This document shows positions 9,125 to 29,442 of a DNA stretch of 31,822 nucleotides, piece by piece. Within the stretch, counting starts at the first letter, position 1; each line of letters starts with the position of its first letter. The position numbers and the translations under genes are program-made. This stretch comes from a virus, in the IMG/VR virus record IMGVR_UViG_3300023082_000028, positions 1 to 31,822 of that record; one strand, 5' to 3'. The notes beneath the pieces were generated by a model. The model had not been told where the DNA came from. It saw nothing but the letters and a program-made list of their open reading frames with translations, and did no database searches.

Positions 9125-9145
9125 GGGACCTCTCACACTGCCGTC

Positions 9146-9178
9146 GTCCCCCAACCACGGGCCGTTCGCCCCGACGAT
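9146..9178 (+). promoter_or_regulatory. Late promoter P1 (leaderless, for the fibre-like gene)
   Basis: GTCCCCCA (9146-9153), a 19-base spacer, then GACGAT (9173-9178) with A at position two and T at position six. The predicted +1 is 9185, which is the A of the ATG. This is the most diverged 8-mer of the eight-member family described in the findings. Confidence 0.5.
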
Positions 9179-9184
9179 CGCCGC

Positions 9185-10699
9185 ATGGCCTTTCCCGACG
9201 GATACACCGCGTGGGGCGGCACCGCCGCCGACTTCACCACCAGCCGCTACGACCTCCGCGACGGCATCACCCTCATCAGGTCCCGCGCCAACAAGGTCAC
9301 CATCTGGGGCGGCCCCGGCGACGACGCCGTGCAGGTCACCGACCTCTACGACCACACCATGGCACCAGTCACCGAACTGCTGTCCGCTCCCTCCGGCCTC
9401 CTCCGCACCTTCTGGGCACCAACCGTGCACGAGGAGTTGTGGGCGTCCGTGCAGGACGGCGAGCTCGTGCAGCTCGTTCCCCACACCGGACCCCCGACAC
9501 CGTGGAGCGCTGTAGGCGACAAGCCGGCCACGTTCCCACCCTCGCCGCACGCTCACTCAACGGGAGACGTGTCCGGGCTCGAGACGCTGGTCACTACCAG
9601 AGCGGGTGACCAGCTCGGCTACGAGGTCGTGGAGGACTTCACCCTCTACGCCGACGGGCCACTTGTCGGCCGCAAGACTCTCAGCAACCCAGGTAGTGGG
9701 CGGCTGACGTGGGGCAACGTCGGCGACCGTGCACCGGTGGTCGAGAGCGGCAGCATCAGCATCCCTCCGGGCGTCGCTGGGACCATGCGCGCCTACCTGG
9801 GTCCTCTCGCCGCTGACGTCAACGTGATCGGGATGGAGTTCTCCCACGACGGCGACGGGTCTGGCGGCCTGTGCTGCATGGCGATCTCTGACGGCCTGAT
9901 CGGCGGCGGCTCATCGTTCCCCGACATGCCCGTGCACCACATCGCGGCCACAACCTCGTGGCATCTCCAGGTGGCCGAGAACGGAGACACCTCCGTCGAG
10001 GATGGCGGCATCGGATCATCGGATCAGGACGGCGGCCCGCTCGTCGCTGGCACCCGCTACCGCGTGGAGGTCATCCTCGACAAGCGCCGTGAACGGGCCT
10101 ATGTCGTGGACCACCGAGGCAACGTCTTCACCGCCGTCAACGGTGCGTTCAACGGGGACGGCCAGCACGTCTACTTCCAGGTGCTTCGCTCGGCCCTGTC
10201 GGAGACCCGGTTCCGCATCCATCGCGTGTGGGCCGACTCGCGCCGCATAGACCCCGTCGTCAACGCGCACGCGCTGACCCGCATGACCCCACCGCCCGTG
10301 CTCAAGTCCGTCGGTGCGCCCGTGGCGTTCGCGGAGTCCACATGGGCGAGTGTCGCGGCCACCGCAGCGAAGATCCCGCTGCCGTCCTCGCGCGCGGTCC
10401 GCGTCCAACTGTCAGGGCGTGTGCAGGTCACGACGGCCGGCGACTTCTACCTCGCCGTGATGCGTGACGGCGGTGTCATCGGCAACCCGATCAAGCCCAT
10501 ATGGGCGGCGCGCGGCACGGGCGTGTTCGACCTCAACGAGGGCATCACGCTCTCACCGGCCGACCTCGCTTCGGGACGGATCGGTGACCCGATGAACCTG
10601 ACCATGTCGGTGTGGGCCCCGGGCAGCGGTGAGGGGTCAATCCTCGCTGGCGGCTACGACAAGTTCGACGTGCAGTATCAGCCCCTCCCGGTGCTGTGA
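9185..10699 (+). CDS. Fibre-like minor structural protein (504 aa)
   Basis: The start region (MAFPDGYTAWGGTAADFTTS) and a Pro/His linker near 120 (PPSPHAHSTGDVSGLETLV) resemble the shaft-joining parts of phage fibres. Residues about 155-350 look like a beta sandwich of the lectin/glucanase (ConA-like) type often found in actinophage minor tail proteins (GTRYRVEVILDKRRERAYVV, then DHRGNVF). A second beta domain ends the protein. I infer a particle-surface protein, perhaps receptor binding. Its place, ahead of the head genes and far from the other tail genes, is unusual. The ATG sits exactly at the predicted +1 of P1, with no ribosome binding site. Confidence 0.65.
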   Translation: MAFPDGYTAWGGTAADFTTSRYDLRDGITLIRSRANKVTIWGGPGDDAVQVTDLYDHTMAPVTELLSAPSGLLRTFWAPTVHEELWASVQDGELVQLVPHTGPPTPWSAVGDKPATFPPSPHAHSTGDVSGLETLVTTRAGDQLGYEVVEDFTLYADGPLVGRKTLSNPGSGRLTWGNVGDRAPVVESGSISIPPGVAGTMRAYLGPLAADVNVIGMEFSHDGDGSGGLCCMAISDGLIGGGSSFPDMPVHHIAATTSWHLQVAENGDTSVEDGGIGSSDQDGGPLVAGTRYRVEVILDKRRERAYVVDHRGNVFTAVNGAFNGDGQHVYFQVLRSALSETRFRIHRVWADSRRIDPVVNAHALTRMTPPPVLKSVGAPVAFAESTWASVAATAAKIPLPSSRAVRVQLSGRVQVTTAGDFYLAVMRDGGVIGNPIKPIWAARGTGVFDLNEGITLSPADLASGRIGDPMNLTMSVWAPGSGEGSILAGGYDKFDVQYQPLPVL

Positions 10700-10824
10700 T
10701 GACCCACCTGTTCGTCCTGCTCGCCGTCGCCGTCGTCCTGGGGTGCACCGTCGCCGGGGTCGCGGCAGCGCTCATATCCGGGGCCAAGCCGTGGCCGGAA
10801 CCGCCCGAGCAATCCGCCCGGTGA
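10699..10824 (+). CDS. Small single-span membrane protein (41 aa)
   Basis: The ATG at 10699 overlaps the stop of the fibre-like gene. Residues about 3-29 (THLFVLLAVAVVLGCTVAGV and onward) form one membrane span, followed by a short Pro-rich polar tail. No cleavable-signal function is clear. It is co-translated with the fibre gene and could be accessory to it or to lysis. Confidence 0.5.
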   Translation: MTHLFVLLAVAVVLGCTVAGVAAALISGAKPWPEPPEQSAR

Positions 10825-10845
10825 GACACAGCGTCCGTGCGCCGT

Positions 10846-10878
10846 TCTCACGTGAGAGTCACCGCCAGCCGCTACCGT
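10846..10878 (+). promoter_or_regulatory. Candidate moron promoter with palindromic operator
   Basis: TCTCACGTGAGA (10846-10857) is a perfect 12-base palindrome. It is followed by TACCGT (10873-10878), which fits the actinobacterial -10 pattern TANNNT. The latter ends eight bases before the ATG at 10887, so a very short or absent leader is predicted. The element does not match the late-promoter family and would let the lipoprotein gene be expressed in the lysogen. Confidence 0.45.
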
Positions 10879-10886
10879 GACGTTCC

Positions 10887-11294
10887 ATGCGATCGCTTCC
10901 CGCCCTTCTTGTACTCGCACTCCCCCTGGCCGCGTGCGGGAGCTCCGACGACACAACCGCCACGGAGGACATCGACCGTGACGCATGGCGCGTCGACCTG
11001 GTCCAGCTCGACGGGACCACGACCGAGCCGGACCTCGACACCCTCGAGCGTGTCACCCGCGACATGTGTGACGACACCATCAGCGACCTCGCGCTCGGGC
11101 TCTCTCTCGAAGGTGCACGACCAGACGTCATCCGCATCAATATGCGGTACGTCTGCCCCGACCGGGTCGGGAACGTCGACAAGGCGCTCGAGCAGATCCA
11201 GGACGCCAGCAGCAACGTCGACGAGGCATGCGCCCTGCCGGAATCCCAGCGGACCGAGGAGCAGTCGATGCTCGCCGAAGCGATGAGCTGCTAG
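10887..11294 (+). CDS. Secreted lipoprotein, probable lysogenic-conversion (moron) gene (135 aa)
   Basis: The N-terminus MRSLPALLVLALPLAACGSS is a lipoprotein signal peptide: basic start, hydrophobic core, and lipobox LAAC with the acyl-bearing Cys at 17. The mature part is acidic. Its cysteine-containing helices (RVTRDMCDDT, NMRYVCPDR) recall the DUF732-like small secreted proteins of actinobacteria, a weak resemblance. Phage-encoded lipoproteins often block superinfection at the cell surface, which is a hypothesis here. The gene has its own promoter-like region and a convergent neighbour overlapping its stop by four bases, so it stands apart from the late operons. Confidence 0.75.
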   Translation: MRSLPALLVLALPLAACGSSDDTTATEDIDRDAWRVDLVQLDGTTTEPDLDTLERVTRDMCDDTISDLALGLSLEGARPDVIRINMRYVCPDRVGNVDKALEQIQDASSNVDEACALPESQRTEEQSMLAEAMSC

Positions 11295-11548
11295 ACGTAC
11301 CGACCCGACCGGTAGTTCGGGTCCACGTCGACCGGGGTGAGCTGCTCCTGCCAGAGCCACTCCTGGCACATCATCGGCGGGGTCGACGGCGTGCGGTCTG
11401 ACACGTAGGCCACGAGCGCCTGCCGCCTGGTCGTGCCACGCCAGTCCAGGATCAGCCCCCGCACCGGGCGTGCCTTCCCTGGCTGACGGACCAGGACGAA
11501 CCGGACATCGTCGTACTGGGGCCACGCGTCGTTCTTCTTCGCGTTCAT
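11291..11548 (-). CDS. Minus-strand hypothetical protein (85 aa)
   Basis: The start at 11548 is preceded on its own strand by GGGGGTGGGG, a possible ribosome site. The product begins MNAKKNDAWPQYDDVRFVLV and has the segment VRGLILDWRGTTRRQALVAY, followed by a Trp/Gln-rich part (CQEWLWQEQLTP). This is natural protein composition, unlike the opposite strand here. It may be a small beta-barrel; I recognise no family. It is the only minus-strand gene in the phage besides the integrase and converges with the lipoprotein gene. Confidence 0.6.
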   Translation of the reverse strand: MNAKKNDAWPQYDDVRFVLVRQPGKARPVRGLILDWRGTTRRQALVAYVSDRTPSTPPMMCQEWLWQEQLTPVDVDPNYRSGRYV

Positions 11549-11560
11549 CCCCACCCCCGC

Positions 11561-11587
11561 AGGATAGAACACCAGTTCGAGGGCCAA
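11561..11587 (-). promoter_or_regulatory. Candidate promoter for the minus-strand moron gene
   Basis: On the minus strand TTGGCC (11587-11582), 15 bases, then TATCCT (11566-11561). The -10 fits TANNNT well; the spacer is short. Transcription would begin near 11554, about six bases before the ATG at 11548. It lies back to back with late promoter P2. Confidence 0.35.
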
Positions 11588-11597
11588 CATCAGGCGC

Positions 11598-11630
11598 ATC
11601 CCACCACAGGTGTGCGACCTGACCCACTCT
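11598..11630 (+). promoter_or_regulatory. Late promoter P2 (leaderless, for protease/scaffold)
   Basis: ATCCCACC (11598-11605), 19 bases, CACTCT (11625-11630). The predicted +1 is 11637, the A of the ATG. The upstream GTG at 11610 in the same frame would lie between the two elements, so this site favours the ATG as the start. Confidence 0.6.
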
Positions 11631-11636
11631 CGGGGC

Positions 11637-12872
11637 ATGCCCACAGGACAGCTCCTCGGAGTCGAGCTCGTGAAGGTCGGATCGTGGCGTGCCGCGGTCG
11701 GCTCCGGCGAGGTCACCCGAGAGGACCTCGCTGACGCCGTCGAGGCGTACTCCGACCACATCATCGACCGCCCAATCCTCAAGGTCGGGCACCAGGACGA
11801 CAACGTCTTCAACGCCGCAGTCAACGACGGCGCCGGTGATGGCGAACCCGCCTACGGGTGGCTCGAGAACGTCCGTCTGAACGACGCCGGCGACACGCTG
11901 ATCGCTGACATCGTCGGCATGCCCACCAAGCTGGCCGAGATCGCCGCGACCGCGTACCGGCGTCGCTCCGTCGAGCTGGCCCGAGGGGTGAAGACCGCCG
12001 CCGGGAAGTCGTACCGCATGGTCGTCACCGGCCTCGCCCTCCTCGGCGTTGCCCGCCCGGCAGTGAAGGGTCTCGCCGACGTCATGGCGCTGTACTCCGA
12101 GCCCGCCGAGACCACATCGGTTGAGGTACTCGAGCTGATGGACGGCCTGACCGCTGACCAGGTCGGCGCGTTCGCAGCCGTTCTCGACTCTCTGGCACCG
12201 GTGCACGACACGGACCTCGTCCCACCACGATCCGACGATGCCGCCAATTCTGGCGGTGACGTTACGCAGGGCCAGCAGCCCGCCGACAAGGAGAACAAGA
12301 TGCCCGGACTGACCAAGGAGCAGGTGCTCGCAGCCCTCGACGCCGAGGGTGACAAGTCGATCGAGGATCGGCTGGCCGAGCTCACCACCGTCGAGGAGAC
12401 GGACGAGGAGAAGGCCGCGCGCGAGAAGGCCGAGGCTGACCAGGCTGCTGCCGAACAGGCGGCCAAGGACAAGGCCGACGCGGACGCCGCTGCTGCTGCA
12501 GCTGCCTCCGGTGGCGACGACGAGGGCGAGAAGCCCGGCACCGTCACCCTGTCGGCCGCGCAGTTCGCCGCCCTCAGCGACGGCGCCACCAAGGGGACCG
12601 AGGTCGCGAAGATCCTCGACGGCCAGCGCCGCGACAAGCTCGCCAACGACGCGTTCCGTGCCGGCAAGATCACCAAGACCGAGCTGACCGAGTGGCGCAA
12701 GGCCCTCGACCGCGACGAGGCCGGCACCACGACCCTCCTGTCCACGCTGACGCCGCGCTTCTCCACGCAGGAGATCGGCGACGACGCCGCCCCGACCGAG
12801 CTCGCCGAGGGCGAGGCCCAGGCCGTCAACTCCTGGCTCGACACCGTCTTCGGCACCGCGCCGACGGCCTGA
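11637..12872 (+). CDS. Mu I-like prohead protease fused to scaffold (411 aa)
   Basis: The first 150 residues match Mu-type prohead proteases: a candidate catalytic His in LKVGHQDDN (near 52), PAYGWLENVRL, then TAYRRRSVELARG with the candidate nucleophile Ser near 110. The enzyme would cut scaffold and itself during capsid maturation. Residues about 222-411 are an Ala/Glu/Lys-rich scaffold with a coiled-coil core (EEKAAREKAEADQAAAEQAA) and a C-terminal domain that would contact the capsid protein. The gene precedes the decoration and major capsid genes as in Mu-like and lambda-like head modules. I chose the ATG at 11637 because promoter P2 places +1 there. A separate scaffold can arise from the internal start at 12300. 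Confidence 0.8.
   Translation: MPTGQLLGVELVKVGSWRAAVGSGEVTREDLADAVEAYSDHIIDRPILKVGHQDDNVFNAAVNDGAGDGEPAYGWLENVRLNDAGDTLIADIVGMPTKLAEIAATAYRRRSVELARGVKTAAGKSYRMVVTGLALLGVARPAVKGLADVMALYSEPAETTSVEVLELMDGLTADQVGAFAAVLDSLAPVHDTDLVPPRSDDAANSGGDVTQGQQPADKENKMPGLTKEQVLAALDAEGDKSIEDRLAELTTVEETDEEKAAREKAEADQAAAEQAAKDKADADAAAAAAASGGDDEGEKPGTVTLSAAQFAALSDGATKGTEVAKILDGQRRDKLANDAFRAGKITKTELTEWRKALDRDEAGTTTLLSTLTPRFSTQEIGDDAAPTELAEGEAQAVNSWLDTVFGTAPTA
12219..12251 (+). promoter_or_regulatory. Late promoter P3 inside the protease gene
   Basis: GTCCCACC (12219-12226), 19 bases, AATTCT (12246-12251). The predicted +1 is 12258, which gives a 42-base leader ending in AAGGAG six bases before the in-frame ATG at 12300. 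The element lies in the linker between protease and scaffold, a low-complexity and AT-richer spot. Confidence 0.55.
12300..12872 (+). CDS. Nested scaffold protein, in-frame internal start (190 aa)
   Basis: AAGGAG (12288-12293) lies six bases before an ATG in the protease frame, a much better start signal than that of the full-length gene. Translation from here gives the scaffold alone (MPGLTKEQVLAALDAEGDKS at its start), without the protease. Nested protease/scaffold pairs are established for lambda C/Nu3 and Mu I/Z. Here the nested frame would have its own promoter (P3) as well as its own ribosome site, giving scaffold in excess over protease. Inferred from sequence alone. Confidence 0.65.
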   Translation: MPGLTKEQVLAALDAEGDKSIEDRLAELTTVEETDEEKAAREKAEADQAAAEQAAKDKADADAAAAAAASGGDDEGEKPGTVTLSAAQFAALSDGATKGTEVAKILDGQRRDKLANDAFRAGKITKTELTEWRKALDRDEAGTTTLLSTLTPRFSTQEIGDDAAPTELAEGEAQAVNSWLDTVFGTAPTA

Positions 12873-12897
12873 CCCGCATCCCACCAAGGAGCCTCAC

Positions 12898-13272
12898 ATG
12901 CCCAGCAACCCCTCCCGGCACACGTACTCGCCCGGTCAGGACATCCCCTGCACCGCGTCGACCGCGGTCACCGGTGCCCGGTTCGTCCTCATCGGCACGT
13001 CCGGTGTGAAGCCGAACCCGAACATCAAGCCCTGCACCGACGGCCTCCAGCCGTTCGGCGTCGCGTCCTACGACGCCGCTGTCGGCCAGACCGTGCGGGT
13101 CATGCGTGCGGGTGTCGTGCTCGTCAAGGTCGGCGCCGGTGGTCTGACGGCCAACCAGGAGGTCCAGTCCGACGCCAACGGTCAGGCCATCGTCCTGGCC
13201 GCGGGCAAGGCCGCCGGTCGCGCCGTCTACGACGCTGCCGCCGGCGCTCTCGCCGAGATCGCCCTGTACTGA
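12898..13272 (+). CDS. Capsid decoration protein, DUF2190-like (124 aa)
   Basis: The ATG at 12898 follows AAGGAG with six bases spacing. The product is a small beta-rich protein (HTYSPGQDIPCTASTAVTGA, then FVLIGTSGV, QTVRVMRAGVVLVKVG) like the head-decoration or fibre-base proteins placed just before the major capsid gene in many phages. It would bind the outside of the shell after expansion and stabilise it. It is 25 bases downstream of the scaffold gene and 41 bases upstream of the capsid gene, so it shares their transcript. Confidence 0.7.
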   Translation: MPSNPSRHTYSPGQDIPCTASTAVTGARFVLIGTSGVKPNPNIKPCTDGLQPFGVASYDAAVGQTVRVMRAGVVLVKVGAGGLTANQEVQSDANGQAIVLAAGKAAGRAVYDAAAGALAEIALY

Positions 13273-13313
13273 TCCCCCGACCCCAGATTCACTGAAAAGA
13301 AAGCGACAAGACG

Positions 13314-14219
13314 ATGCCCGGACCCGGAAGCATTTACCCTCCCGACGCCGCAACGGTCGCGGGATCCAAGATCACCGTCGATCGTTGGCTCAAGAATCCG
13401 ACGATCCAGCAGAAGTCCTTCGAGCGGATCACGCTCCAGCAGGGTTTCATCGCCGACTTCCTGTTCCGCGGCGGCCTCGCCGAGGGCGGAGCGGTGATCT
13501 ACGACAAGCTCACCGCGGCCAACCTCTGGGCCGACGGCGAGCCGGGCATCATCGCCCCGATGAGCGAGTTCCCGCTCGTCGACGTGTCCGACCCCGACCC
13601 GAAGATCGCGCTCGCGGTCGAGCGTGGCCTGGCATTCGAGACGTCGTTCCAGGCGATCAAGCGCAACAACATCGACGTCATCGCGAAGGGCGTCCGCCGC
13701 CTCGCGAACACGATGATCCGCAACCACGACGCGGTCGCGCTCGCGGCGTTCTACACCGACCCCGACATCCCCACGGGCGACGGCTCGGTCACGTGGGCGT
13801 CCGACGGCGGCGACGGGATCCTGACGGACATGTTCGCCGGCTCCGCGGTCGTCGAGGACGGCGACATGGCGTACACGGTCGACACGGCGATCATCCGCCC
13901 CGAGACCCGCACGCTGCTGCTGTCGAAGAAGGCCATCCGTGAGGCCCTGCCCCGCGAGAACACCGCGATCAACCCGGTCACGTCCGGAAAGCTCGCGGGT
14001 CTGGCGGGCATCGACAACTGGATCGTGTCGCGTCGCGCCCCGGTCGGCAAGGTCGCCTACGTCAACTCCAAGGTGGTCGGCTCGATCAACGTCGAAGAGG
14101 CCTTCTGGACCGCCTCGATCGAGGACAAGCTGCGCCGTCGCTGGGTGACGCAGGCCGGCCGGTCGGACGTCCCGATCATCGACGAGCCGCTCGCGGCGTA
14201 CATCCAGGACATCGCCTGA
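13314..14219 (+). CDS. Major capsid protein (301 aa)
   Basis: The gene lies directly after scaffold and decoration genes, with a purine-rich ribosome site (GAAAAGAAAG) some distance upstream. The N-terminal part (VDRWLKNPTIQQKSFERITL) is followed by an alternating helix/strand body and a C-terminal domain (NWIVSRRAPVGKVAYVNSKV; then FWTASIEDKLRRRWVTQ). The size and pattern fit HK97-fold shell proteins of the short Mu-like type. I see no separate long delta domain, consistent with scaffold supplied by the upstream gene. The stop overlaps the ATG at 14219. Confidence 0.8.
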   Translation: MPGPGSIYPPDAATVAGSKITVDRWLKNPTIQQKSFERITLQQGFIADFLFRGGLAEGGAVIYDKLTAANLWADGEPGIIAPMSEFPLVDVSDPDPKIALAVERGLAFETSFQAIKRNNIDVIAKGVRRLANTMIRNHDAVALAAFYTDPDIPTGDGSVTWASDGGDGILTDMFAGSAVVEDGDMAYTVDTAIIRPETRTLLLSKKAIREALPRENTAINPVTSGKLAGLAGIDNWIVSRRAPVGKVAYVNSKVVGSINVEEAFWTASIEDKLRRRWVTQAGRSDVPIIDEPLAAYIQDIA

Positions 14220-14881
14220 TGGCCGGCGACGCGGGCAAGGTCGCCCGCCCGGCCGCCAAAAAGGCAGCGGCGGCCCCGGTCCCGACCCCGGAGCCTGCCG
14301 ACGTTGCCCCTGTGGCGCCGTCCCCGGCCGCGGACGTCCAGACGCCCATCGTCGACGACAGCACGGTCTACGTCGTGTCCGTCGAGGACGCGGACAACGT
14401 CGAGGTGTCCGTGCCGAACGACGTCGACGAGGCCGAGGTGGGTGACTACCTGGTCCTCGCTCTGGAGGAGAAGGGCATCGACAAGTCGAAGCTCGTCAGC
14501 TACTCCAAGGCGTCCGACATCGACCCTGCCCCGGGTGCCGTCACACCCGGGGCAGGGGACGGCAACGTCCCCGAGGTCCCGGACAGCGTCGACACCGACA
14601 CCGGACTGGACCTCGAGGCGCTCGCGCGGCTCGCCGCTGGCGACCCGGACACCGAGGTCGTCGTCGAGGAGCCCGTCGAGGTCGCCCCGTTCCTGTCCGG
14701 CCGCGAGCACGTCTTCTCGAAGGACGGTGACCGGTACCTGGTGCTCGGTGCCATCTTCTCCTGCTGGGTCGACGGGAACTACCGGGCCGCCGACAAGGGC
14801 GACGTCGTGGTCGTCGCCCCGGAGATCGCAGAGAAGTCGCTCCGCAAGGGCTACCTTCTCGCGCTCGACGACGAGTCCTGA
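14219..14881 (+). CDS. Head-associated hypothetical protein (220 aa)
   Basis: The ATG overlaps the capsid stop by one base, so it is made together with capsid protein. The N-terminus is an Ala/Pro/Lys linker (KVARPAAKKAAAAPVPTPEP). The middle is acidic, with Val/Asp/Glu repeats, and the C-terminus is a small beta domain (HVFSKDGDRYLVLGAIFSCW) that may be SH3- or barrel-like. Its position suits a minor head, vertex or joining protein. A hairpin follows its stop. Confidence 0.6.
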   Translation: MAGDAGKVARPAAKKAAAAPVPTPEPADVAPVAPSPAADVQTPIVDDSTVYVVSVEDADNVEVSVPNDVDEAEVGDYLVLALEEKGIDKSKLVSYSKASDIDPAPGAVTPGAGDGNVPEVPDSVDTDTGLDLEALARLAAGDPDTEVVVEEPVEVAPFLSGREHVFSKDGDRYLVLGAIFSCWVDGNYRAADKGDVVVVAPEIAEKSLRKGYLLALDDES

Positions 14882-14897
14882 GACGCACTACCCAACG

Positions 14898-14938
14898 GGG
14901 CCGCTCGTCTGTCGCCACTGAGCACAGGCGGGCGGCCC
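14898..14938 (+). terminator. Hairpin after the capsid gene group, possible weak terminator
   Basis: GGGCCGCTCGTCTG (14898-14911) pairs with CAGGCGGGCGGCCC (14925-14938) as a 14-bp stem containing two G-U pairs and a 13-base loop. Only a short non-T tail follows. It may reduce read-through from abundant capsid message into the connector genes, or protect the 3' end of that message. Confidence 0.45.
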
Positions 14939-14965
14939 TAGCCATGACCGAGGAGGAGCCCCACG

Positions 14966-15433: not shown

Positions 15434-15434
15434 C

Positions 15435-15896: not shown

Positions 15897-16456
15897 TCGG
15901 GCCCGAGGGCGCGACCAAAGCCGTGGCCGAGCGTGTCGCCGACCTGATGCCCGACAAGCTGGTCGAGCTCCGCGAACGCCTCGCTGACGACAAGCTGCCC
16001 GAGGTCAACTCGATCACTGCGTTCGACGACCACCGCATCCCGATGAACAAGTGGCCGGCGATCATGGTCGTGCCTCAGGACACCCCGAAGATGACGATGG
16101 CAGGCACCAACGGTGTCGAGGAGAAGTGGACCCCCCGTTACGTCATGCGCGCGTTCGTGTGGGTGCGAGGCAGCGACCAGCTCAACGTCGCCCTCAACCG
16201 GTACCGGATCACCCTCGCGCTGCGTGAGGTGCTCCTCGCGTCTCGCGTGTTCGACCAGTTCGAGCTCGACGTGACCACGTTCCGCGAATCGTTCTCCGAC
16301 GTGATGGACGTCAAGAACGAGGGCACCATCGCCGGCGCCTGGATCCAGTTCGACATGACCTCCGAGGAGACCCTCACCACGGGCACCGCGTTGGGCACCG
16401 TCGCGACTGCAGACGTGAACACGGACGTCATCCCACAACACCCCGCGCTTTCTTAG
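15893..16456 (+). CDS. Neck or tail-completion protein (187 aa)
   Basis: The ATG at 15893 overlaps the previous stop (ATGA). The product is an alpha/beta protein (MIGPEGATKAVAERVADLMP at the start; YVMRAFVWVRGSDQLNVALN in the middle) in the position of tail-terminator or neck proteins, between the morphogenesis protein and the sheath. Its last codons overlap the 8-mer of late promoter P4. Function is inferred from gene order. Confidence 0.6.
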   Translation: MIGPEGATKAVAERVADLMPDKLVELRERLADDKLPEVNSITAFDDHRIPMNKWPAIMVVPQDTPKMTMAGTNGVEEKWTPRYVMRAFVWVRGSDQLNVALNRYRITLALREVLLASRVFDQFELDVTTFRESFSDVMDVKNEGTIAGAWIQFDMTSEETLTTGTALGTVATADVNTDVIPQHPALS

Positions 16457-16462
16457 GACGGT
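16430..16462 (+). promoter_or_regulatory. Late promoter P4 (leaderless, for the sheath/tube unit)
   Basis: ATCCCACA (16430-16437), 19 bases, GACGGT (16457-16462). The predicted +1 is 16469, which is the second of two in-frame ATG codons (16463 and 16469). The 8-mer lies inside the end of the preceding gene. Confidence 0.5.
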
Positions 16463-16468
16463 ATGCCC

Positions 16469-16837
16469 ATGACCACACGCCTGTTCAACCCCGGCCCGGG
16501 CACATTCGTGTCTCCCACCGGTGGAGTGTTCGCTCCCGGTGAGCACTTTCACGCCGAGCTGAGCGACGCCCTCTACGCGGCAGTCGATCGCGGGCGTCTG
16601 CTGGTCGTCGACGAGCCCGAGATCCCCGTCCTGGAGCCCGCACAGCCCGACGTCGAGCCGCTGCAGTCGTTCCATGACGCCGCTGTCGATGCGATCGAGG
16701 AGCAGTCCACCGATGGCGGCGACGAGATCACTGAGGTCGGGTCCGAGGACGAGATCGTCATCGACGACACCCCCGCACCGAAGCCCGGCCCCCCGGCCAA
16801 GAAGACCACGTCCAAGACCGCGCAGAAAGAGGACTGA
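16469..16837 (+). CDS. Tail-associated hypothetical protein (122 aa)
   Basis: Two ATG codons stand six bases apart (16463 and 16469). I prefer the second because promoter P4 places +1 on it. The N-terminus (MTTRLFNPGPGTFVSPTGGV) is a small beta domain. The rest is an acidic linker ending in a Lys/Thr tail (PPAKKTTSKTAQKED). Short proteins of this pattern precede the sheath in other contractile phages with no assigned role. Confidence 0.6.
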   Translation: MTTRLFNPGPGTFVSPTGGVFAPGEHFHAELSDALYAAVDRGRLLVVDEPEIPVLEPAQPDVEPLQSFHDAAVDAIEEQSTDGGDEITEVGSEDEIVIDDTPAPKPGPPAKKTTSKTAQKED

Positions 16838-16840
16838 CCC

Positions 16841-18301: not shown

Positions 18302-18318
18302 GTCAGGAGAACAGCATC

Positions 18319-18729: not shown

Positions 18730-18799
18730 CCTCTCCTCCTGAGGGTCAGGTAGTCCTGTCGCCGTGGCCACGCGCCACGTGTCGGCGGTTCTCCTAGAC

Positions 18800-18866: not shown

Positions 18867-18888
18867 TTCGCATGCCCAGAACGTCACC

Positions 18889-18921
18889 GTCCCACCACGC
18901 GGGGCCGGGCGCCGCGAATCT
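18889..18921 (+). promoter_or_regulatory. Late promoter P5 (for chaperone/tape measure unit)
   Basis: GTCCCACC (18889-18896), 19 bases, GAATCT (18916-18921). The predicted +1 is 18928, which leaves a 33-base leader carrying TAGGAGA before the ATG at 18961. It follows the hairpin at 18800-18866, so the terminator/promoter pair separates two tail operons. Confidence 0.6.
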
Positions 18922-18960
18922 GAGCGGGACAGAACACCCCGTGGCGACCTAGGAGACCCC

Positions 18961-19539
18961 ATGACCACGACCCCCGACCACGACTTCACCCGACCGGCCG
19001 CAACTTCCACCGGCCCGCAGCTCAACGAGCGTGCGGCGTCGGACTTCGAGAAGCTCCGCAACATCCCGGATCCGGACCTCGCGCCCGTCCCCGAGAAGTC
19101 CGACCTCGAGCTCATCGCCGCCGACCTCAAGGCCAACATCGAGGACACCTCGATCGTCCTGCCGGTCAAGCGTCGGGAGGGCTACTCGCTACGGTTCGAC
19201 ACCAACATTCCGTGGGAGCACTTCGAGAAGTGGCGCAAGGTGTCGAAGGACCGCAGGGCGACCAACGGCATGGACGTGCCGCGCCTGGCGTCCCTGGTCA
19301 TCGCGAACAAGTGCATCGAGATCCTCAAGGACGGCAAGGTCCTCGTCGACGACGCCGGCGACCCGCTGACCTTCGGCTCCGACGAGATCCGCAGCCTCTA
19401 CGGGACGCCGAAGGCCGCCGAGGCGGTCAAGCTCATGATCGGCCGCGACTCCGACATGACGGCCATCTCGGACGCCGTCGTCACCGCTGCCGGTTGGGGT
19501 GACGAGGTCTCCGAGGAGGATCCTACGCCGGCCGACTGA
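18961..19539 (+). CDS. Tail assembly chaperone gpG (192 aa)
   Basis: The gene sits between tube and tape measure genes, where G-type chaperones are always found. The product has a disordered N-terminus, a central alpha/beta domain (RREGYSLRFDTNIPWEHFEK, followed by WRKVSKDR) and a helical end (AVKLMIGRDSDMTAISDAVV), and it stops at 19537-19539. It is thought to coat the tape measure protein before tube polymerisation. A second open segment in the -1 frame runs to 19712 and encodes the T part, so two products are expected. The ATG follows AGGAGA. Confidence 0.8.
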   Translation: MTTTPDHDFTRPAATSTGPQLNERAASDFEKLRNIPDPDLAPVPEKSDLELIAADLKANIEDTSIVLPVKRREGYSLRFDTNIPWEHFEKWRKVSKDRRATNGMDVPRLASLVIANKCIEILKDGKVLVDDAGDPLTFGSDEIRSLYGTPKAAEAVKLMIGRDSDMTAISDAVVTAAGWGDEVSEEDPTPAD

Positions 19540-19712: not shown

Positions 19713-19723
19713 GGTGAACAGCG

Positions 19724-22998: not shown

Positions 22999-23002
22999 AC
23001 GG

Positions 23003-24295: not shown

Positions 24296-24296
24296 G

Positions 24297-24551
24297 ATGA
24301 CGTCACTGTTCAGCCCCAGCTCGTCGGCGCCGGACGGCACCGGGGTGTGGCTCGGCACCGTCACCCGCATCGCATCCGGCGGCAGCGTGTACGTGCAGGT
24401 CGGCCGGCAGGCTGGTGAAGGCGAGTACGGTCCGTGCCTCGTCGTCGGCACCGTGAGCCTGTCCGCCGGCGACCGCGTCGCGGCAGCGTTCGTCGAGGGG
24501 TCCCCCGACGACGTGATCGTCCTCGGGCCCGTATCTGACTCCAACCCATGA
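24297..24551 (+). CDS. gpV-like baseplate assembly protein, short OB-fold form (84 aa)
   Basis: The ATG at 24297 comes one base after the hub stop. The product is a single small beta domain (GVWLGTVTRIASGGSVYVQV, then GPCLVVGTVSLSAGDRVAAA, VLGPV), matching the OB fold of gpV/gp5 spike proteins. It is much shorter than usual and lacks a beta-helix or tip, so any piercing tip would come from another protein. Its position after the hub and before gp25 is standard. Confidence 0.65.
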   Translation: MTSLFSPSSSAPDGTGVWLGTVTRIASGGSVYVQVGRQAGEGEYGPCLVVGTVSLSAGDRVAAAFVEGSPDDVIVLGPVSDSNP

Positions 24552-24570
24552 CCGATCCTGTGACCGGCTC

Positions 24571-24603
24571 GTCCCACCGACTCCGAGAATGCTCGGTCAT
24601 GCT
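24571..24603 (+). promoter_or_regulatory. Late promoter P6 (leaderless, for the baseplate wedge unit)
   Basis: GTCCCACC (24571-24578), 19 bases, CATGCT (24598-24603). The predicted +1 is the G of a GTG at 24610. This supports that GTG over the in-frame ATG at 24589, which lies within the spacer. Confidence 0.6.
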
Positions 24604-24609
24604 GGGCGC

Positions 24610-24933
24610 GTGTCCACCGAACTGATCGCTCACCCCTTCACGATCCGGGCCAACGGCACCGTCAAGACGGTCACCGACGGGTCGTCCGCAGCCAACGCCC
24701 AGGCGATCGCCGTCATCGCGCAGACCGTCCGAGGCGAGCGCCCCATGTGCCCCGGTTTCGGCGTCACCGACCCAGCGTTCCGAGGCCTCGATGTCGGCGA
24801 GATCCAGGCCGGCCTCGCGGCGTTCGGGCCGCAGGGTGTGACCGTGTCGGCGCTCAGCTACGAGCCTCGCACCGAGACCACCGCGGCCGTGACCATCGCG
24901 TTCGTCGACACCGAGGGAGCTCCCAGTGCCTGA
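24610..24933 (+). CDS. gp25-like baseplate wedge protein (107 aa)
   Basis: The product (STELIAHPFTIRANGTVKTV, then IAVIAQTVRGERPMCPGFGV, then DP.F and VSALSYEPR) has the gp25/gpW layout: an N-terminal strand, a helix ending in the conserved 'RGER' turn with the Pro/Gly-rich loop, and C-terminal strands. It forms the inner baseplate and starts sheath assembly. I chose the GTG at 24610 because promoter P6 predicts +1 there; the ATG at 24589 is the alternative. It overlaps the next gene by eight bases. Confidence 0.75.
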   Translation: MSTELIAHPFTIRANGTVKTVTDGSSAANAQAIAVIAQTVRGERPMCPGFGVTDPAFRGLDVGEIQAGLAAFGPQGVTVSALSYEPRTETTAAVTIAFVDTEGAPSA

Positions 24934-26071
24934 GCAGATCAACATCCCGGACGAGTTCACCAACCCGACCCTGTACGACGCTGACGAGCAGGTCCTCGTC
25001 GACCGGGCACTGACGCACGCCCAGACGAAGCTGCCGGAGTGGACTCCACGCGAAGGCAACACCGAGGTGGTGCTCACGGAGTCGCTGGCGCTGCTCGTCG
25101 CCGAACTTGTGTTCGCGATCAACCGCCTGCCCGAGCAGACGCTCGAGGGGCTCTTGCTGCTCTACGGCCTGGCCCGCGACCCCGGCGAGCCATCGACCGG
25201 AACGGCCCGCTTCACACTGGCCGACTCCCTCGGCTTCACGATCCCGCTCGGCACCGAGCTGCGCGCGACCATCAGCGACACGGCCGAGGAGATCGACTTC
25301 ACCACGACCGTGTCGGTGGCAGTCGACCCGGGCGCCACGACCGCCGACGTGCCCATCCAGGGAGTCGAGAATGGCATCGGCGCCAACGGCTTGCCCGCCG
25401 GCACGGTGCTGCAGATCCTCGATGCTGTGCCCTACGTCGAGTCGGCGATCACCGTCGGCATCGTGACCGGTGGGCGGGAGCCCGAGGGCGACAGCGACTT
25501 CTACAACCGCGGCGCCGCGATGCTGTCGCGCCTCACGTCCACGCTCGTGCTGCCGGCCCAGTTTCGGGCCGCGGCTCTTGAGGATCCGTCCGTCAGCTAC
25601 GCGACCGTCTACGACCTCTACGACCCGACCGCCGGCGGCGTGCCCGGCGATCACCTCGGTCACGTGACCGTCGCTGTCGTCGATGAAGACGGAGGCGCGA
25701 TCACCGACCCCGAGATGGCCACACTCGAGGCCGTTCTGTCCGCGAAGACCCACGCCGGGCTCGACGTGCACATCGTCGCGCCCACGTACCAGCCCGTCGA
25801 CGTCACGGCCACAGTCATCGCGAAGGCCAACGCCGACCCGACCGCCGTCGACACTGCTGTGACCGCGGCCCTGACGGCCTACCTGGCGCCGAGGAACTGG
25901 ATCGGTCGCGGCACCACGACCGTCTACCACAACGAGCTCATCTCCCTGATGGATCAGGTGACCGGCGTCGAGCGCGTCGCGACGCTCACCGCGCCGGCCG
26001 GGGACGCCGTACTGAGCGGGATCATCGTCCTGCCCGAGCCCGGCGCGATCACCGTGACGGTAGCGGTCTGA
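24926..26071 (+). CDS. Baseplate J-like protein (381 aa)
   Basis: The GTG at 24926 overlaps the gp25-like gene. The sequence has the gpJ/gp47 order: a helical N-terminus (ESLALLVAELVFAINRLPEQ), a beta domain (IPLGTELRATISDTAEEIDF; VPIQGVENGIGANGLPAGTV), the conserved 'GREPEGDSDFYNR' motif, and C-terminal strands (HIVAPTYQPVDVTATVIAKA). It forms the wedge that links hub to fibres. Length and neighbours (gp25 before, gpI after) are as expected. Confidence 0.85.
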   Translation: MPEQINIPDEFTNPTLYDADEQVLVDRALTHAQTKLPEWTPREGNTEVVLTESLALLVAELVFAINRLPEQTLEGLLLLYGLARDPGEPSTGTARFTLADSLGFTIPLGTELRATISDTAEEIDFTTTVSVAVDPGATTADVPIQGVENGIGANGLPAGTVLQILDAVPYVESAITVGIVTGGREPEGDSDFYNRGAAMLSRLTSTLVLPAQFRAAALEDPSVSYATVYDLYDPTAGGVPGDHLGHVTVAVVDEDGGAITDPEMATLEAVLSAKTHAGLDVHIVAPTYQPVDVTATVIAKANADPTAVDTAVTAALTAYLAPRNWIGRGTTTVYHNELISLMDQVTGVERVATLTAPAGDAVLSGIIVLPEPGAITVTVAV

Positions 26072-26709
26072 TGCTGCCCGATCCGTCATTCGACGCCGCG
26101 TGGACGACCGCTTTCACGCGTGAGTGGTACGCCTCGCTCCCCGCGGCCTACAGGGATCTCGACCGGGGCGAGCAGCAGCTACTCCGGTTCCTGTCCCTGC
26201 TGGGCGATCAGGCCGACCAGGTCGAGCAGCTCGCCCAACAGGCCGAGGCCGGCACGCTGACGTCACCCGCTACGACCCCCGATGTGCTGGTGCCGTGGCT
26301 CGGGCAGATGGTCGGCCTGACGACCAACGCGCCTGCGACCGTCGCCCAGTTGCGTGCGCGGATGTCATCTCTTGACGCCCTGCGATACGCCGGCAATCCG
26401 GCATCCATTGAACTGGCTGTCAAGCCGCTCTTGAGCGGCGACCGGTGGGTGTCGGTGCGACCGCATGAAGGCACGCCTGCCGGTAGCCCGTGGGTCATCG
26501 GGATCTTTGTTCGTGACTCCGAGTCTCCTGCCGACCTGACCGAGATCAGCGACGCAGTCACTGCAGCCGGTCTGAAACCGGCCGGCTTCGGACTCGTCGT
26601 CGGCACGGTTAGCGTGTCGTGGGCCGCGATCGATGGCCTGCCCGGCGAGTGGGACGGCGTGAAGGCAGACGGCGCGAGCTGGGCCGAGATCGACAACGAA
26701 GCGTGGTGA
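26071..26709 (+). CDS. Tail protein I-like baseplate wedge (212 aa)
   Basis: The ATG shares one base with the gpJ-like stop. The N-terminus is helical (LDRGEQQLLRFLSLLGDQAD) with 'PDVLVPWLGQMVGL' and RYAGNPASIELAVKPLL, the signature pattern of P2 gpI-like tail proteins. The C-terminal end (WAAIDGLPGEWDGVKADGAS) has short Trp repeats. It would cap the wedge and attach fibres. The 57-base gap after it carries promoter P7. Confidence 0.75.
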   Translation: MLPDPSFDAAWTTAFTREWYASLPAAYRDLDRGEQQLLRFLSLLGDQADQVEQLAQQAEAGTLTSPATTPDVLVPWLGQMVGLTTNAPATVAQLRARMSSLDALRYAGNPASIELAVKPLLSGDRWVSVRPHEGTPAGSPWVIGIFVRDSESPADLTEISDAVTAAGLKPAGFGLVVGTVSVSWAAIDGLPGEWDGVKADGASWAEIDNEAW

Positions 26710-26727
26710 CGGTCCTACACCGGCTAC

Positions 26728-26760
26728 GTCCCACCCTGCCCGACGTCACCGGGTGATCGT
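26728..26760 (+). promoter_or_regulatory. Late promoter P7 (leaderless, for the tail-collar fibre)
   Basis: GTCCCACC (26728-26735), 19 bases, GATCGT (26755-26760). The predicted +1 is 26767, the A of the ATG. No ribosome binding site is present before that ATG (TCGTTCTCTT). Confidence 0.65.
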
Positions 26761-26766
26761 TCTCTT

Positions 26767-27576
26767 ATGGTTGTCTCCCTCACCGCGCGCCTCGGACTCA
26801 AGCGATGGTCGACGTCAACTGACGAGTGGATCGGGCGCGAAGGCTTCAACGCCCAGAACGAGACCCTCGACGACGTCATCGCGATCGACGACCAAGGGCC
26901 GATCAGCGCGCGGCCAGCCGAAGCGGTCCGCGGCTTCTACTACTACGCCACCGATGTGGAGCAGCTCTATCGGAACACCGGCACGGGCTGGGTCCCGATC
27001 GGCGTCGACGCGTCGAAGCTGGTCGGGAAGGTCCCACTCGCTGCGCTGCCGACGCAGGTCCCGATCGGTGGGGGGATTCTCTGGTTCACCCCGTCCATCC
27101 CGGACAACTACATGAAGCCGCGGGGGCAGGCGATCTCCCGCATCACCTACGCGGCTCTCTTCGCTCTGTGGGGGACGACCTTCGGGGCGGGCAACGGGTC
27201 GACGACGTTCAACCTCCCTGGCATCGTTGGTCGCACGATCGTGGCCGTCGACCCGAACGACCCGGCCTTCGACACGGTCGGAGACTTCGGCGGCGAGAAG
27301 ACCGTCACGCTCAGCACGGCGACGATGCCGAACCACTCACATGGCGGCGGCGTCGCTGACGGCGGGATCAACGCGTTGATGAGCCGCAACCTAGCGAGCG
27401 ACAACTCCGCCCCGTCCGGCGCCGTCGCGCGCGGCGACGGCGCCACAGCAGGCGTTCGAGGGATCAACGGATCCGGTCACGGGCACGGCCTCAGCATCAA
27501 CGCCGAGGGGGGCGGACAGCCTCACAACAACATGCCGCCGTACTACGTCGCCGAGTACCTCATCCGGGTGCTGTGA
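26767..27576 (+). CDS. Tail fibre protein with tail-collar domain (269 aa)
   Basis: The central part matches the phage tail-collar (microcystin-dependent-like) domain: GGGILWFTPSIPDNYMKPRG, then ALFALWGTTFGAGNGSTTFN followed by LPGIVGRTIV. The C-terminal part carries NHSHGGG and GSGHGHGLS metal-type His clusters and the usual ending 'NNMPPYYVAEYLIRVL'. Such proteins form short trimeric fibres at the baseplate and probably bind host cell-wall sugars. The ATG has no ribosome site and lies at the predicted +1 of P7. Confidence 0.85.
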   Translation: MVVSLTARLGLKRWSTSTDEWIGREGFNAQNETLDDVIAIDDQGPISARPAEAVRGFYYYATDVEQLYRNTGTGWVPIGVDASKLVGKVPLAALPTQVPIGGGILWFTPSIPDNYMKPRGQAISRITYAALFALWGTTFGAGNGSTTFNLPGIVGRTIVAVDPNDPAFDTVGDFGGEKTVTLSTATMPNHSHGGGVADGGINALMSRNLASDNSAPSGAVARGDGATAGVRGINGSGHGHGLSINAEGGGQPHNNMPPYYVAEYLIRVL

Positions 27577-28001
27577 TGGACTCCGAGATCCCCGAGGTCG
27601 TCGTGCGCCGTCACATCGTGTGGGTCGAGCGAGCAGCACGGATGGGCTGCTACGCGCGCGATCTCTGCCTCCTGTGGACGGGCAGCATCTACGTCTTCGT
27701 CGTCACCCCTCCCAGCATCAGCGAGGCCGGCTTCTACGGCGTCACCTCGATCGCCTGGGCGCTGCTGCTGTTCGGCGGCTCGCTCGTGTCGTTCATCGGC
27801 CTCGTGTTGGGAAAGACCCTCGCCGAACTCTGGGGCTGTCTCGCGGTTGGCGGCGGATTCCTCCTGTGGACCATCGCGGCTGTCATCCAGCCCGACGTCA
27901 CCGCCGTCTCGCTCGGAGTGGCTGGCGTGCTCGCTGCGGGCGTCTTCGGACAGATCTACCGGGTGGGGATGATCGCAACCGGGAGGGTCATCCGATGGTG
28001 A
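27576..28001 (+). CDS. Four-span membrane protein (141 aa)
   Basis: The ATG at 27576 shares its A with the fibre stop. Hydrophobic segments lie near residues 29-46, 54-76, 83-103 and 109-127 (for example WALLLFGGSLVSFIGLVLGK), so four spans are likely. It opens a group of membrane protein genes ahead of the endolysin and could belong to the holin set. No family is recognised. Confidence 0.6.
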   Translation: MDSEIPEVVVRRHIVWVERAARMGCYARDLCLLWTGSIYVFVVTPPSISEAGFYGVTSIAWALLLFGGSLVSFIGLVLGKTLAELWGCLAVGGGFLLWTIAAVIQPDVTAVSLGVAGVLAAGVFGQIYRVGMIATGRVIRW

Positions 28002-28420
28002 CGTTCCTGACCGCCACGACCACCACCGACCCGTCTGGCCCTCTGCTCGGCGGGTCCGTCTTCGCGTGGGTCGCTCTCGTCGTCACAGTCCTCGGTGTTG
28101 GCGCCGGCGGCGGGGTGCTCGGACGCAAGCTCAAGTGGTTCGAGGTCAAGCAGATCGCCGAGAACAACGAGCGGAGCGGGGAGCACCTCTTGATCGACCA
28201 ACTGCAGGAGGAGAAGGAGTCCGAGCGCAAGCGGCACGCTGACGAGCTGGCCCGCAGGGACGCTGAACACTCCCAGCAGCTCACGGGCCTGCGCGATGAC
28301 CTCGCGAAGGTCCAGCGGGCGAATGTGGCTCTCTGGAACCACGTCAACAACCTCCACACGTGGATCGCGGGGGGTGCTGAGCCACCAGCCCCGGCGATGC
28401 CAGAAGGGCTGTTCGGATGA
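27995..28420 (+). CDS. Membrane-anchored coiled-coil protein, lysis-accessory candidate (141 aa)
   Basis: The ATG at 27995 overlaps the upstream gene and follows GGGAGGG. One membrane span (VFAWVALVVTVLGVGAGGGV, about 21-40) precedes a long charged coiled coil (about 55-115, LQEEKESERKRHADELARRD). This layout resembles Rz-type or holin-associated proteins, although actinobacteria lack the outer membrane that spanins act on. A regulator of the holin is another option. It overlaps the next ATG. Confidence 0.55.
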   Translation: MVTFLTATTTTDPSGPLLGGSVFAWVALVVTVLGVGAGGGVLGRKLKWFEVKQIAENNERSGEHLLIDQLQEEKESERKRHADELARRDAEHSQQLTGLRDDLAKVQRANVALWNHVNNLHTWIAGGAEPPAPAMPEGLFG

Positions 28421-28719
28421 TCGAATTCCTGACCGAGCACGCCGGCACGTTCCGGCTGCCAAACCTCGTCCTCGGCCTACTGGTCATCGTGACCCTCGGC
28501 TGGCGGCACCTCTACAACCACCCGCGCCGCGATCTCGACGACCGGCTCCGCTCAGCCACCTCCGTGCTGCCCTACGTCGTGCTGGTGGTGGCCTCGGGCA
28601 TCGCGTACTCGCGGGGGTACGTCGCGCCGTCCTACGTCGCCTGGATGACGTTCGCGCTGCTGGCGTACCTGGTGGCCCTGTGGACGCCGTGGCGGTGGCG
28701 TCTGCCGGCCCGTACCTAG
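28417..28719 (+). CDS. Small multi-span membrane protein, holin candidate (100 aa)
   Basis: The ATG overlaps the previous stop (ATGA). Hydrophobic stretches near residues 15-30, 50-67 and 71-91 (LPYVVLVVASGIAYSRGYVA; YVAWMTFALLAYLVALWTPW) suggest three spans, and the C-terminus is basic (RWRLPART). Size, topology and position just before the endolysin fit a holin. A second candidate is at 30243. Confidence 0.55.
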   Translation: MIEFLTEHAGTFRLPNLVLGLLVIVTLGWRHLYNHPRRDLDDRLRSATSVLPYVVLVVASGIAYSRGYVAPSYVAWMTFALLAYLVALWTPWRWRLPART

Positions 28720-28728
28720 AATCCTGCC

Positions 28729-28761
28729 GTCCCACCCGGACGCACGCTGGCGTCGCATCTT
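28729..28761 (+). promoter_or_regulatory. Late promoter P8 (leaderless, for the endolysin unit)
   Basis: GTCCCACC (28729-28736), 19 bases, CATCTT (28756-28761). The predicted +1 is 28768, the A of the endolysin ATG. Confidence 0.65.
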
Positions 28762-28767
28762 GGCGTC

Positions 28768-29442
28768 ATGACCAACCAGTTCACGCGGATCCGCAGCCCG
28801 TTCCCTGCGGACTGGCAGCCCGCCGACATCTCGCTCGGCCTCGAGCAGGTGCTCGACGCTGTCCACGCGATCACCGACCTGCCGATCTACATCGGCCAGC
28901 CGCCGTACAACACCAAGAACCGGGAGTCGAAGGGCACCCACGACAAGCGCAACTGCGCCGACCTCTACGGCCGCAAGGGCCACGAGAAGGCCGACCTCAA
29001 CCAGTTCCGCGTCTGGCTGCCCCGGCTCGGCTGGCCGGGCTGGGTGCGCGACCCCTCCCAGGGGAACTGGCCCTGGCACTTCCACTTCCTCAAGCACGGC
29101 GACCCGGGCCTCGCCCAGCTCGCGCTCGAGCAGGACGTCGCCTACGTGAAGGACCGCAACGGTCTGGGCCGTGCTGGGATGGCGGGTCCCGACTACGGCG
29201 CCCGACCGCGCGACCCCGAGGTCATCCACGTCTACAAGCCAACCGACGTGTTCAAGGTGCGGACGCGGACGGGCGGCTACTCGCAAGCCAAGAAGGACGC
29301 CGACCTCAAGCTCAAGGTGCGCGACCCCGGCTTCGTCGTCAGCAACCACGTCCTCACCGTGGCCGACAAGAACGGGCACCAGTTCGTCGTCACCGCGTCC
29401 GGGACGTTCTACGACCGCTCGAAGCTCGTGGCGGTCCGCTGA
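28768..29442 (+). CDS. Endolysin, M15-type peptidase (224 aa)
   Basis: KGTHDKRNCADL places His 58 and Asp 65 seven residues apart as in the HxxxxxxD half of the M15 zinc site. WHFHF at 103-107 supplies the later HxH, so the enzyme should cleave peptidoglycan cross-links or stem peptides in the D,D-carboxypeptidase/L-Ala-D-Glu manner. Cys 63 replaces the small residue often found there. The C-terminal 75 residues (VIHVYKPTDVFKVRTRTGGY onward) are probably a wall-binding part of unknown type. There is no signal peptide, so release depends on a holin. The gene starts at the predicted +1 of P8. Confidence 0.75.
   Translation: MTNQFTRIRSPFPADWQPADISLGLEQVLDAVHAITDLPIYIGQPPYNTKNRESKGTHDKRNCADLYGRKGHEKADLNQFRVWLPRLGWPGWVRDPSQGNWPWHFHFLKHGDPGLAQLALEQDVAYVKDRNGLGRAGMAGPDYGARPRDPEVIHVYKPTDVFKVRTRTGGYSQAKKDADLKLKVRDPGFVVSNHVLTVADKNGHQFVVTASGTFYDRSKLVAVR

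Follow-up and report, generated by a model that had tools for sequence, protein, structure and literature searches.

Eight sites on the plus strand of the virus record IMGVR_UViG_3300023082_000028 are likely to be the late promoters, dependent on an activator, mostly leaderless and read by the host sigma-A RNA polymerase, of an actinobacterial phage with a contractile tail. This single virus record, called the window here, has 31,822 bases, was analysed over its whole length and carries head, tail, fibre and integrase genes. At each site an 8-mer close to GTCCCACC is followed by 19 bases and then by a hexamer with the -10 signature NANNNT. The fixed geometry, synteny, strand bias, start-codon spacing, contrast in Shine-Dalgarno (SD) sequences and phage specificity of these sites were observed directly, and from sequence we infer the start sites, with +1 on the first base of the start codon, the reading by sigma-A, the need for an activator and the timing.

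The 8-mers, 19-base gaps and hexamers of the original prediction were all found at their places in the window. Six of the eight sites have a start codon exactly 39 bases from the first base of the 8-mer, as had been claimed, and the two others would give leaders of 42 and 33 bases, each with an SD-like word. The claimed coupling of the 8-mer to the -10 signature also held, with NANNNT at a spacing of 19 in 5/5 exact plus-strand copies of GTCCCACC compared to 0/3 minus-strand copies. Among copies with one mismatch, the signature was present at this spacing in 1/21 on the plus strand and 1/19 on the minus strand.

Enrichment and recurrence of the element

To rank the motif without bias, each hexamer seen at least four times was combined with gaps of 12-25 bases and a downstream NANNNT, giving up to ~57,000 combinations. 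TCCCAC with a gap of 20 was top-ranked on the plus strand of the window (7/13, binomial tail 5.9e-9, uncorrected). It was also top-ranked on the plus strands of Vibaki (12/16, 2.9e-16), Pippa (8/12, 1.8e-9) and a Jiangella contig (NZ_LFXL01000053.1 of Jiangella muralis DSM 45357; 5/9, 2.8e-7). Other combinations led the scan in DrYang, ArV1 and Bumble, in the 41-50 kb parts scanned of Cantare, Schomber, DalanDe and GMA6, and on every minus strand. The binomial tails are uncalibrated: with values as low as 1.8e-7 for unrelated hexamers on the Bumble and Jiangella minus strands, the rank in the Jiangella contig proves little by itself. A weight matrix was then made from 109 sites of 14 other records, with the window left out. 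This matrix ranked the eight sites 1-8, with scores of 24.7 to 10.2 bits and a next score of 6.4. In 40 Markov-made windows the best score was at most 15.2 and the eighth-best at most 2.5. Seven of the eight sites satisfy the selection rule used for the training sites; the site at 9146, which has a mismatch in the core, lies outside it and still ranks 5th. The informative parts of the matrix test are this rank and the gap to the next score.

The motif search over related phages that had been proposed as a check showed that the element recurs on the late strand at equivalent late genes of Arthrobacter phages, the Jiangella muralis phage contig and metagenomic phages. Seven phages with ~0.36 Mb of sequence formed a first set (the window, Pippa, DrYang, Vibaki, ArV1, Bumble and the Jiangella contig). 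The proportion of TCCCAC copies with a -10 at gap 20 on the late strand versus the other strand was 7/13 vs 0/12 in the window, 7/10 vs 1/4 in Pippa (first 32 kb), 4/12 vs 0/12 in DrYang (first 34 kb), 12/16 vs 0/5 in Vibaki, 6/13 vs 1/21 in ArV1 (first 50 kb), 4/17 vs 0/13 in Bumble and 4/4 vs 1/12 in the L011 part of the Jiangella contig. In the right parts of two genomes the values on the two strands were 1/3 and 1/5 (Pippa, from 28 kb) and 1/8 and 0/18 (DrYang, from 30 kb). The recurrent positions are before the portal, protease-scaffold, small pre-sheath, tail chaperone, minor tail and baseplate wedge genes and inside the protease-scaffold gene, although not each position is occupied in each phage. 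The element is thus not a peculiarity of one prophage, as could have been supposed from the original prediction, since several carriers are isolated Arthrobacter phages.

A held-out set of nine records gave the same picture. The -10 signature was found at gap 20 in 73/103 TCCCAC copies, with 0-8 at the other gaps between 14 and 26 and 3/91 on the minus strand; this set is not fully independent by descent, as G167 and G168, two of its records, are apparently Arthrobacter phages with relatives in the first set. A search for relatives of the tail sheath returned 88 phage records, 72 from Arthrobacter, 14 from Gordonia and two from Brevibacterium. Matches in whole records of the Gordonia phages numbered one in Schomber, one in DalanDe and four in GMA6, all four on the reverse strand, and the two strands of Cantare (50 kb) gave 1/8 and 0/20. 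In the related Gordonia and Brevibacterium phages the element is at background level only.

We also searched host DNA with the strict leaderless pattern TCCCAC, N20, SANNNT, N6, ATG. A single match was found in the 7.3-Mb genome of Jiangella muralis, and it lies in the phage contig; 148 actinomycete genomes (including Jiangella) gave 45 matches vs 23 for the reversed control. Equal frequency in host DNA would have spoken against the motif, and the pattern is instead rare there. Judged from these sequences, the element is phage-specific and not a host promoter class.

Predicted leaderless starts and promoter anatomy

If the sites are promoters of leaderless messages, start codons should lie at one fixed distance from the element. 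In the first set an open-frame start codon is found 39 or 40 bases from the first base of the 8-mer at 26/46 sites (Vibaki site 48132 is too close to the record end to be counted). ATG at exactly 39 accounts for 21/46, and any other offset from 33 to 99 has at most two ATGs. In the first 34.5 kb of five annotated phages, the depositor's start is at 39/40 for 16/29 sites and no other offset occurs twice. The element would fix the start site to the base and therefore calls one annotated start into question, that of the Pippa portal gene, which was placed at 1970, the predicted leaderless start being 12 bases further downstream, at 1982.

SD-like words separate the two kinds of start. In the first set such a word precedes 1/27 leaderless starts vs 12/15 leadered starts. 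For these counts we assigned the classes and chose the leadered start codons manually, dropped five of the 46 sites (Pippa 44706, DrYang 49161, Vibaki 33166 and 40666, and ArV1 46352) and added window site 9146. Two of the dropped sites, DrYang 49161 and ArV1 46352, are motif matches inside a GC hairpin followed by a T-run, that is, terminator-like false positives. In the held-out set 42/73 sites are leaderless (ATG, GTG or TTG at offset 39-41) and an SD-like word was found at 0/42; among the 31 other sites, 26 have a start within 110 bases, 16 of them with an SD-like word. As a control we used annotated late starts, which have an SD-like word in 0/16 cases at promoter +39/40 vs 60/139 for all others, and in 7/17 when only those others that share A-11 and T-7 are counted. 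In the leadered class the element lies 71-93 bases before the start codon. By its sequence, then, the family has the features of a leaderless regulon, a -10 element at a fixed short distance from the start codon and no SD sequence there. The idea of one late promoter family with mostly leaderless messages stands in silico, on the fixed gap, the starts at +39/40, the SD contrast, synteny and rarity in host DNA.

The anatomy of the promoters was examined with logos of 118 sites, numbered from the predicted +1 at the first base of the start codon; A-11, T-7 and TCCCAC at -38 to -33 define the search. Beyond these bases, C is present at -40 in 108 sites and A at -32 in 96, and the bases A, C, A and C at -50 to -47 are present in 65, 66, 66 and 73. 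This ACAC box starts at offset -11 from the 8-mer in 22/42 sites of the first set, compared to 0 to 2 at other offsets. At -12 the base is C in 70 sites, G in 38 and A in 10; T-12 occurs in only 2/120 sites, and these two, DrYang 49161 and ArV1 46352, were left out of the logo. No TTGACA-like -35 was seen in the logos, only TCCCAC at -38 to -33. The sites therefore differ from canonical sigma-A promoters, having neither TANNNT with T at -12 nor a TTGACA-like -35 ~17 bp upstream. Of the canonical -10 in the original prediction, A-11 and T-7 remain, being part of the search definition, but the sites avoid T at -12. Its non-standard upstream element in place of a -35 box is retained, but this element is larger than the 8-mer, comprising C-40, TCCCAC and, in about half of the sites, ACAC. 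The conserved block runs from -51 to -32 and is centred at -41.5. Class II activators bind at about -41.5, and by its sequence the upstream element is more readily taken for an activator site than for a -35 box.

Possible readers of the promoters

We propose that host RNA polymerase with its primary sigma factor would read each site through A-11 and T-7. Since they have neither T at -12 nor a TTGACA-like -35, the sites would be expected to work poorly with the host enzyme alone. An activator specific to the phage would bind the ~20-base site from -51 to -32 and would thus be placed about -41.5, as class II activators are. Most transcripts would have the first base of the start codon as their 5' end and be translated as leaderless messenger RNAs. 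A minority, among them those for the tail chaperone and the nested scaffold protein, would have a leader of 32-54 bases, mostly with an SD-like word.

Other readers would account for parts of this evidence. The sigma-A holoenzyme could act unaided, with TCCCAC as an alternative -35 contact and the timing set elsewhere. The retention of A-11 and T-7 (again by search definition) and the lack of sigma region 2 in the phages would suit this, and the late promoters of the Thermus phage phiYS40, which reportedly share only a -10-like element, are said to need no phage factor in vitro. Avoidance of T at -12, the position of TCCCAC off the usual -35 and the rarity of the strict pattern in host DNA make unaided reading unlikely. 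A phage-encoded sigma factor that reads TCCCAC/VANNNT would explain a -12 preference unlike that of primary sigma, and small Pippa proteins are weakly similar to sigma region 4, below curated cut-offs. No Pfam sigma region 2 match was found in 15/15 carrier records, window included, by a search that detected its control in 10/14 known genomes and would miss a very divergent sigma; we set this reader aside as highly improbable. A repressor operator over the promoters, rather than an activator site, would fit an element that overlaps the polymerase footprint in a phage that is probably temperate by its integrase. The orientation and distance to the -10 are, however, fixed, and promoters with no T-12 and no -35 look so weak that they would hardly need repression, so that we regard an operator as very unlikely.

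Host WhiA, perhaps together with a WhiB-like protein, might act at the ACAC box, which often reads GACAC, given as the WhiA consensus in the available text of PMC3781837, and the window encodes a WhiB-like protein. However, the constant part is TCCCAC, with ACAC at its fixed position in only 22/42 sites. The search for WhiB found none in six other carriers and gave matches in four records that lack the promoters (three Gordonia phages and L013, two of the matches below the curated cut-off). This distribution also led us to drop WhiB as a common activator, and a role of WhiA seems quite unlikely. Finally, the fixed distance to start codons at most sites could reflect a translational or start-associated RNA signal, like SAS of the cluster K phages, and not a promoter. 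The same element with its -10 is also present 71-93 bases before leadered starts and within the scaffold coding region, which leaves such a signal with next to no probability.

Under an activator-dependent reading, the leading candidate for the activator, by co-occurrence only, is phrog_5264, represented by Pippa gp69. This protein has two CPxC motifs (CPAC-x11-CPVC) and is encoded upstream of the terminase genes. It is present in 6/6 carriers other than the window and absent from 8/8 non-carrier records. Of the 46 non-virion genes of Pippa, gp1 and gp69 alone have a relative at BLAST level in the Jiangella phage. At 29 phrog_5264 loci of viral contigs, several of which are copies of named phages, TCCCAC is accompanied by a -10 in 58/112 copies on the gene strand and 4/101 on the opposite strand; at 50 sheath loci selected without regard to phrog_5264 the values were 0/98 and 11/199. 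A promoter match lies between phrog_5264 and TerS in 8/10 loci examined. Pippa gp1 is conserved but was rejected as the activator, as its site before the large terminase suggests that it is the small terminase; its family bears the PHROG name 'Rnase E'. The small helix-turn-helix proteins gp36, gp38 and gp73 of Pippa were rejected as well, since they have no BLAST-level relative in the Jiangella phage. We tentatively suggest that phrog_5264 could be a zinc-ribbon late activator which binds TCCCAC (with ACAC), redirects the host sigma-A polymerase to promoters without T-12 and -35, and so switches on a mostly leaderless virion regulon. If this were true, late expression of the phage would be switched at transcription and translation both.

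Several observations weigh against the proposed promoters and activator. Only 4/17 TCCCAC copies in Bumble and 4/12 in DrYang have a -10, and the element is not top-ranked in either. The SD counts of the first set were made after the removal of 5/46 sites, two of them terminator-like. Across the 148 actinomycete genomes the strict pattern is about twice as frequent as its reversed control. The association of ACAC with leadered sites in the first set (13/15 vs 11/27, p=0.008) failed in the held-out set (11/31 vs 12/42), and the box was dropped as a marker of that class. As for phrog_5264, it was not found in the window record, which also has no terminase or portal match and is probably a fragment. 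Its co-occurrence with the promoters is confounded by descent, because it travels with the same terminase and tail lineage: 7/8 tested phrog_5264 records carry the sheath, the miss being a 10-kb fragment. The non-carriers include records related to one another (three Gordonia phages, and L013 and L045, which share sites). The predicted fold of phrog_5264 is mediocre (mean pLDDT, the predicted local distance difference test score, of 71.4), and a comparison of the model with solved structures in the PDB gave no match (best E 3.5).

The eight proposed promoters in their genomic and biological context

All eight proposed promoters lie on the plus strand. Late promoter 1 (9146..9185) has its element at 9146-9153, with the one core mismatch, an ACAC box at 9135-9138, a -10 at 9173-9178 and a predicted +1 on ATG 9185 of a 504-aa, fibre-like gene (9185-10699). 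This gene and a lipoprotein-like gene sit upstream of the scaffold gene in the window. Late promoter 2 (11598..11637; element 11598-11605, -10 11625-11630) would start transcription on ATG 11637 of the protease-scaffold gene (11637-12872) and has leaderless counterparts in Pippa, Vibaki and Bumble. Late promoter 3 (12219..12258; ACAC box 12208-12211, element 12219-12226, -10 12246-12251, predicted +1 12258) lies within the protease-scaffold gene and has internal counterparts in Pippa, Vibaki, ArV1, Bumble and the Jiangella contig. Because of this position, we predict a nested scaffold protein of 190 aa, encoded on the plus strand at 12300..12872 in frame with the longer gene, with the SD-like word AAGGAG and a 42-base leader. 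An in-frame internal scaffold start with no stop between is found in the window and in all five phages with an internal counterpart, hence in 6/7 phages of the first set. The arrangement resembles C/Nu3 of lambda.

Late promoter 4 (16430..16469; ACAC box 16419-16422, element 16430-16437, -10 16457-16462, predicted +1/ATG 16469) precedes a small gene ahead of the tail sheath, with counterparts in Pippa, Vibaki and the Jiangella contig. Late promoter 5 (18889..18928; element 18889-18896, -10 18916-18921, predicted +1 18928) would give a 33-base leader with an SD-like word before the tail chaperone ATG at 18961, and its counterparts in Pippa, Vibaki, DrYang, ArV1 and Bumble are also leadered. Late promoter 6 (24571..24610; element 24571-24578, -10 24598-24603, predicted +1/GTG 24610) belongs to the baseplate wedge gene, has the lowest matrix score of the eight (10.2) and has counterparts in Pippa, Vibaki and Bumble. 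Late promoter 7 (26728..26767; ACAC box 26717-26720, element 26728-26735, -10 26755-26760, predicted +1/ATG 26767) precedes a tail collar/fibre gene, and late promoter 8 (28729..28768; element 28729-28736, -10 28756-28761, predicted +1/ATG 28768) a gene of 224 aa with no family match.

The head genes of the window encode a protease-scaffold, a scaffold/decoration-like protein and a major head protein; the tail genes encode the sheath, chaperone, tape measure, baseplate wedge, baseplate J and fibres. A tyrosine integrase is also encoded, which suggests that the phage is probably temperate. With Pippa queries no terminase or portal was found in the window record; as head and tail genes are present, the record is probably a fragment, truncated or rearranged. 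The WhiB-like protein gene is at 7607-7954, with ATG 7679 (Pfam E 5.5e-11). A protein with an IrrE/ImmA-like (Peptidase_M78) domain is encoded at 6666-7061, a type known from lysogeny control regions. Megablast of window positions 9000-30000 against the phage collection gave only two matches of 41-45 bp, both in Rhodococcus phages; this near-identity at 12396-12440 falls in the scaffold gene of GuyFagieri and MacGully. The first 38.8 kb of GuyFagieri showed no enrichment of the motif (plus 0/0, minus 1/19), and its tail gene set differs. No relative was found by a search of viral contigs based on the major capsid protein, nor by a first scan of genome contigs with the sheath alignment. In DrYang and ArV1 the unbiased scan is led by a second enriched element, AAAACA/AAACAG followed by NANNNT at 13-14 bases downstream, which possibly marks early promoters; a strict pattern built for this family gave no matches.

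Leaderless phage messages have a precedent, and the original prediction of an undescribed kind of late programme needs to be narrowed accordingly. According to the available text of PMC3594737, most middle and late transcripts of phiYS40 lack a leader, as predicted here for the actinophage late genes. The host of phiYS40 belongs to another phylum, and the actinophages differ by a strict upstream element at a fixed distance. In T4 middle promoters, which use a MotA box, AsiA and sigma appropriation, a phage element likewise replaces the -35 (PMC7403470, in the text available); the actinophage element differs in sequence and position, serves virion genes and appears leaderless. Class II activator promoters share the position of the -51 to -32 block, the activator here being a candidate. 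SAS/ESAS of cluster K mycobacteriophages and the repeats of EC/EF/EG/EI Microbacterium phages are, like the element, short conserved upstream repeats. In the portions of PMC7302621 available, no fixed -10/start geometry is described for these repeats; SAS-like motifs occur where ribosomes bind, and most EC/EG repeats sit among non-structural genes. Actinobacterial leaderless genes also have a -10-like element beside the start codon, TANNNT ~12 bp before it in the available part of PMC3160421, but the actinophage sites avoid T at -12 and always have the upstream element.

The available text of Klyczek 2017 (PMC5513430) contains no mention of promoter, motif, leaderless, TCCCAC or transcription. 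In the open-licence literature, within the texts available, we found no report of leaderless promoters in Arthrobacter phages, although absence in print is unproven, no relevant report of GTCCCACA in phages, and no description of a control element for the late genes of these Arthrobacter phages. What was found on leaderless genes in actinobacteriophages includes a single predicted leaderless gene in Adephagia and a discussion of hidden HNH genes. The element described here predicts a nested in-frame scaffold gene and points to an activator candidate. It would also make isolated phages available as a system whose late promoters, for the most part, apparently produce leaderless messenger RNAs. 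Together, these results suggest that a group of viruses of soil actinobacteria may switch on their virion genes through one shared and unusual promoter, with messages that mostly start at the start codon.

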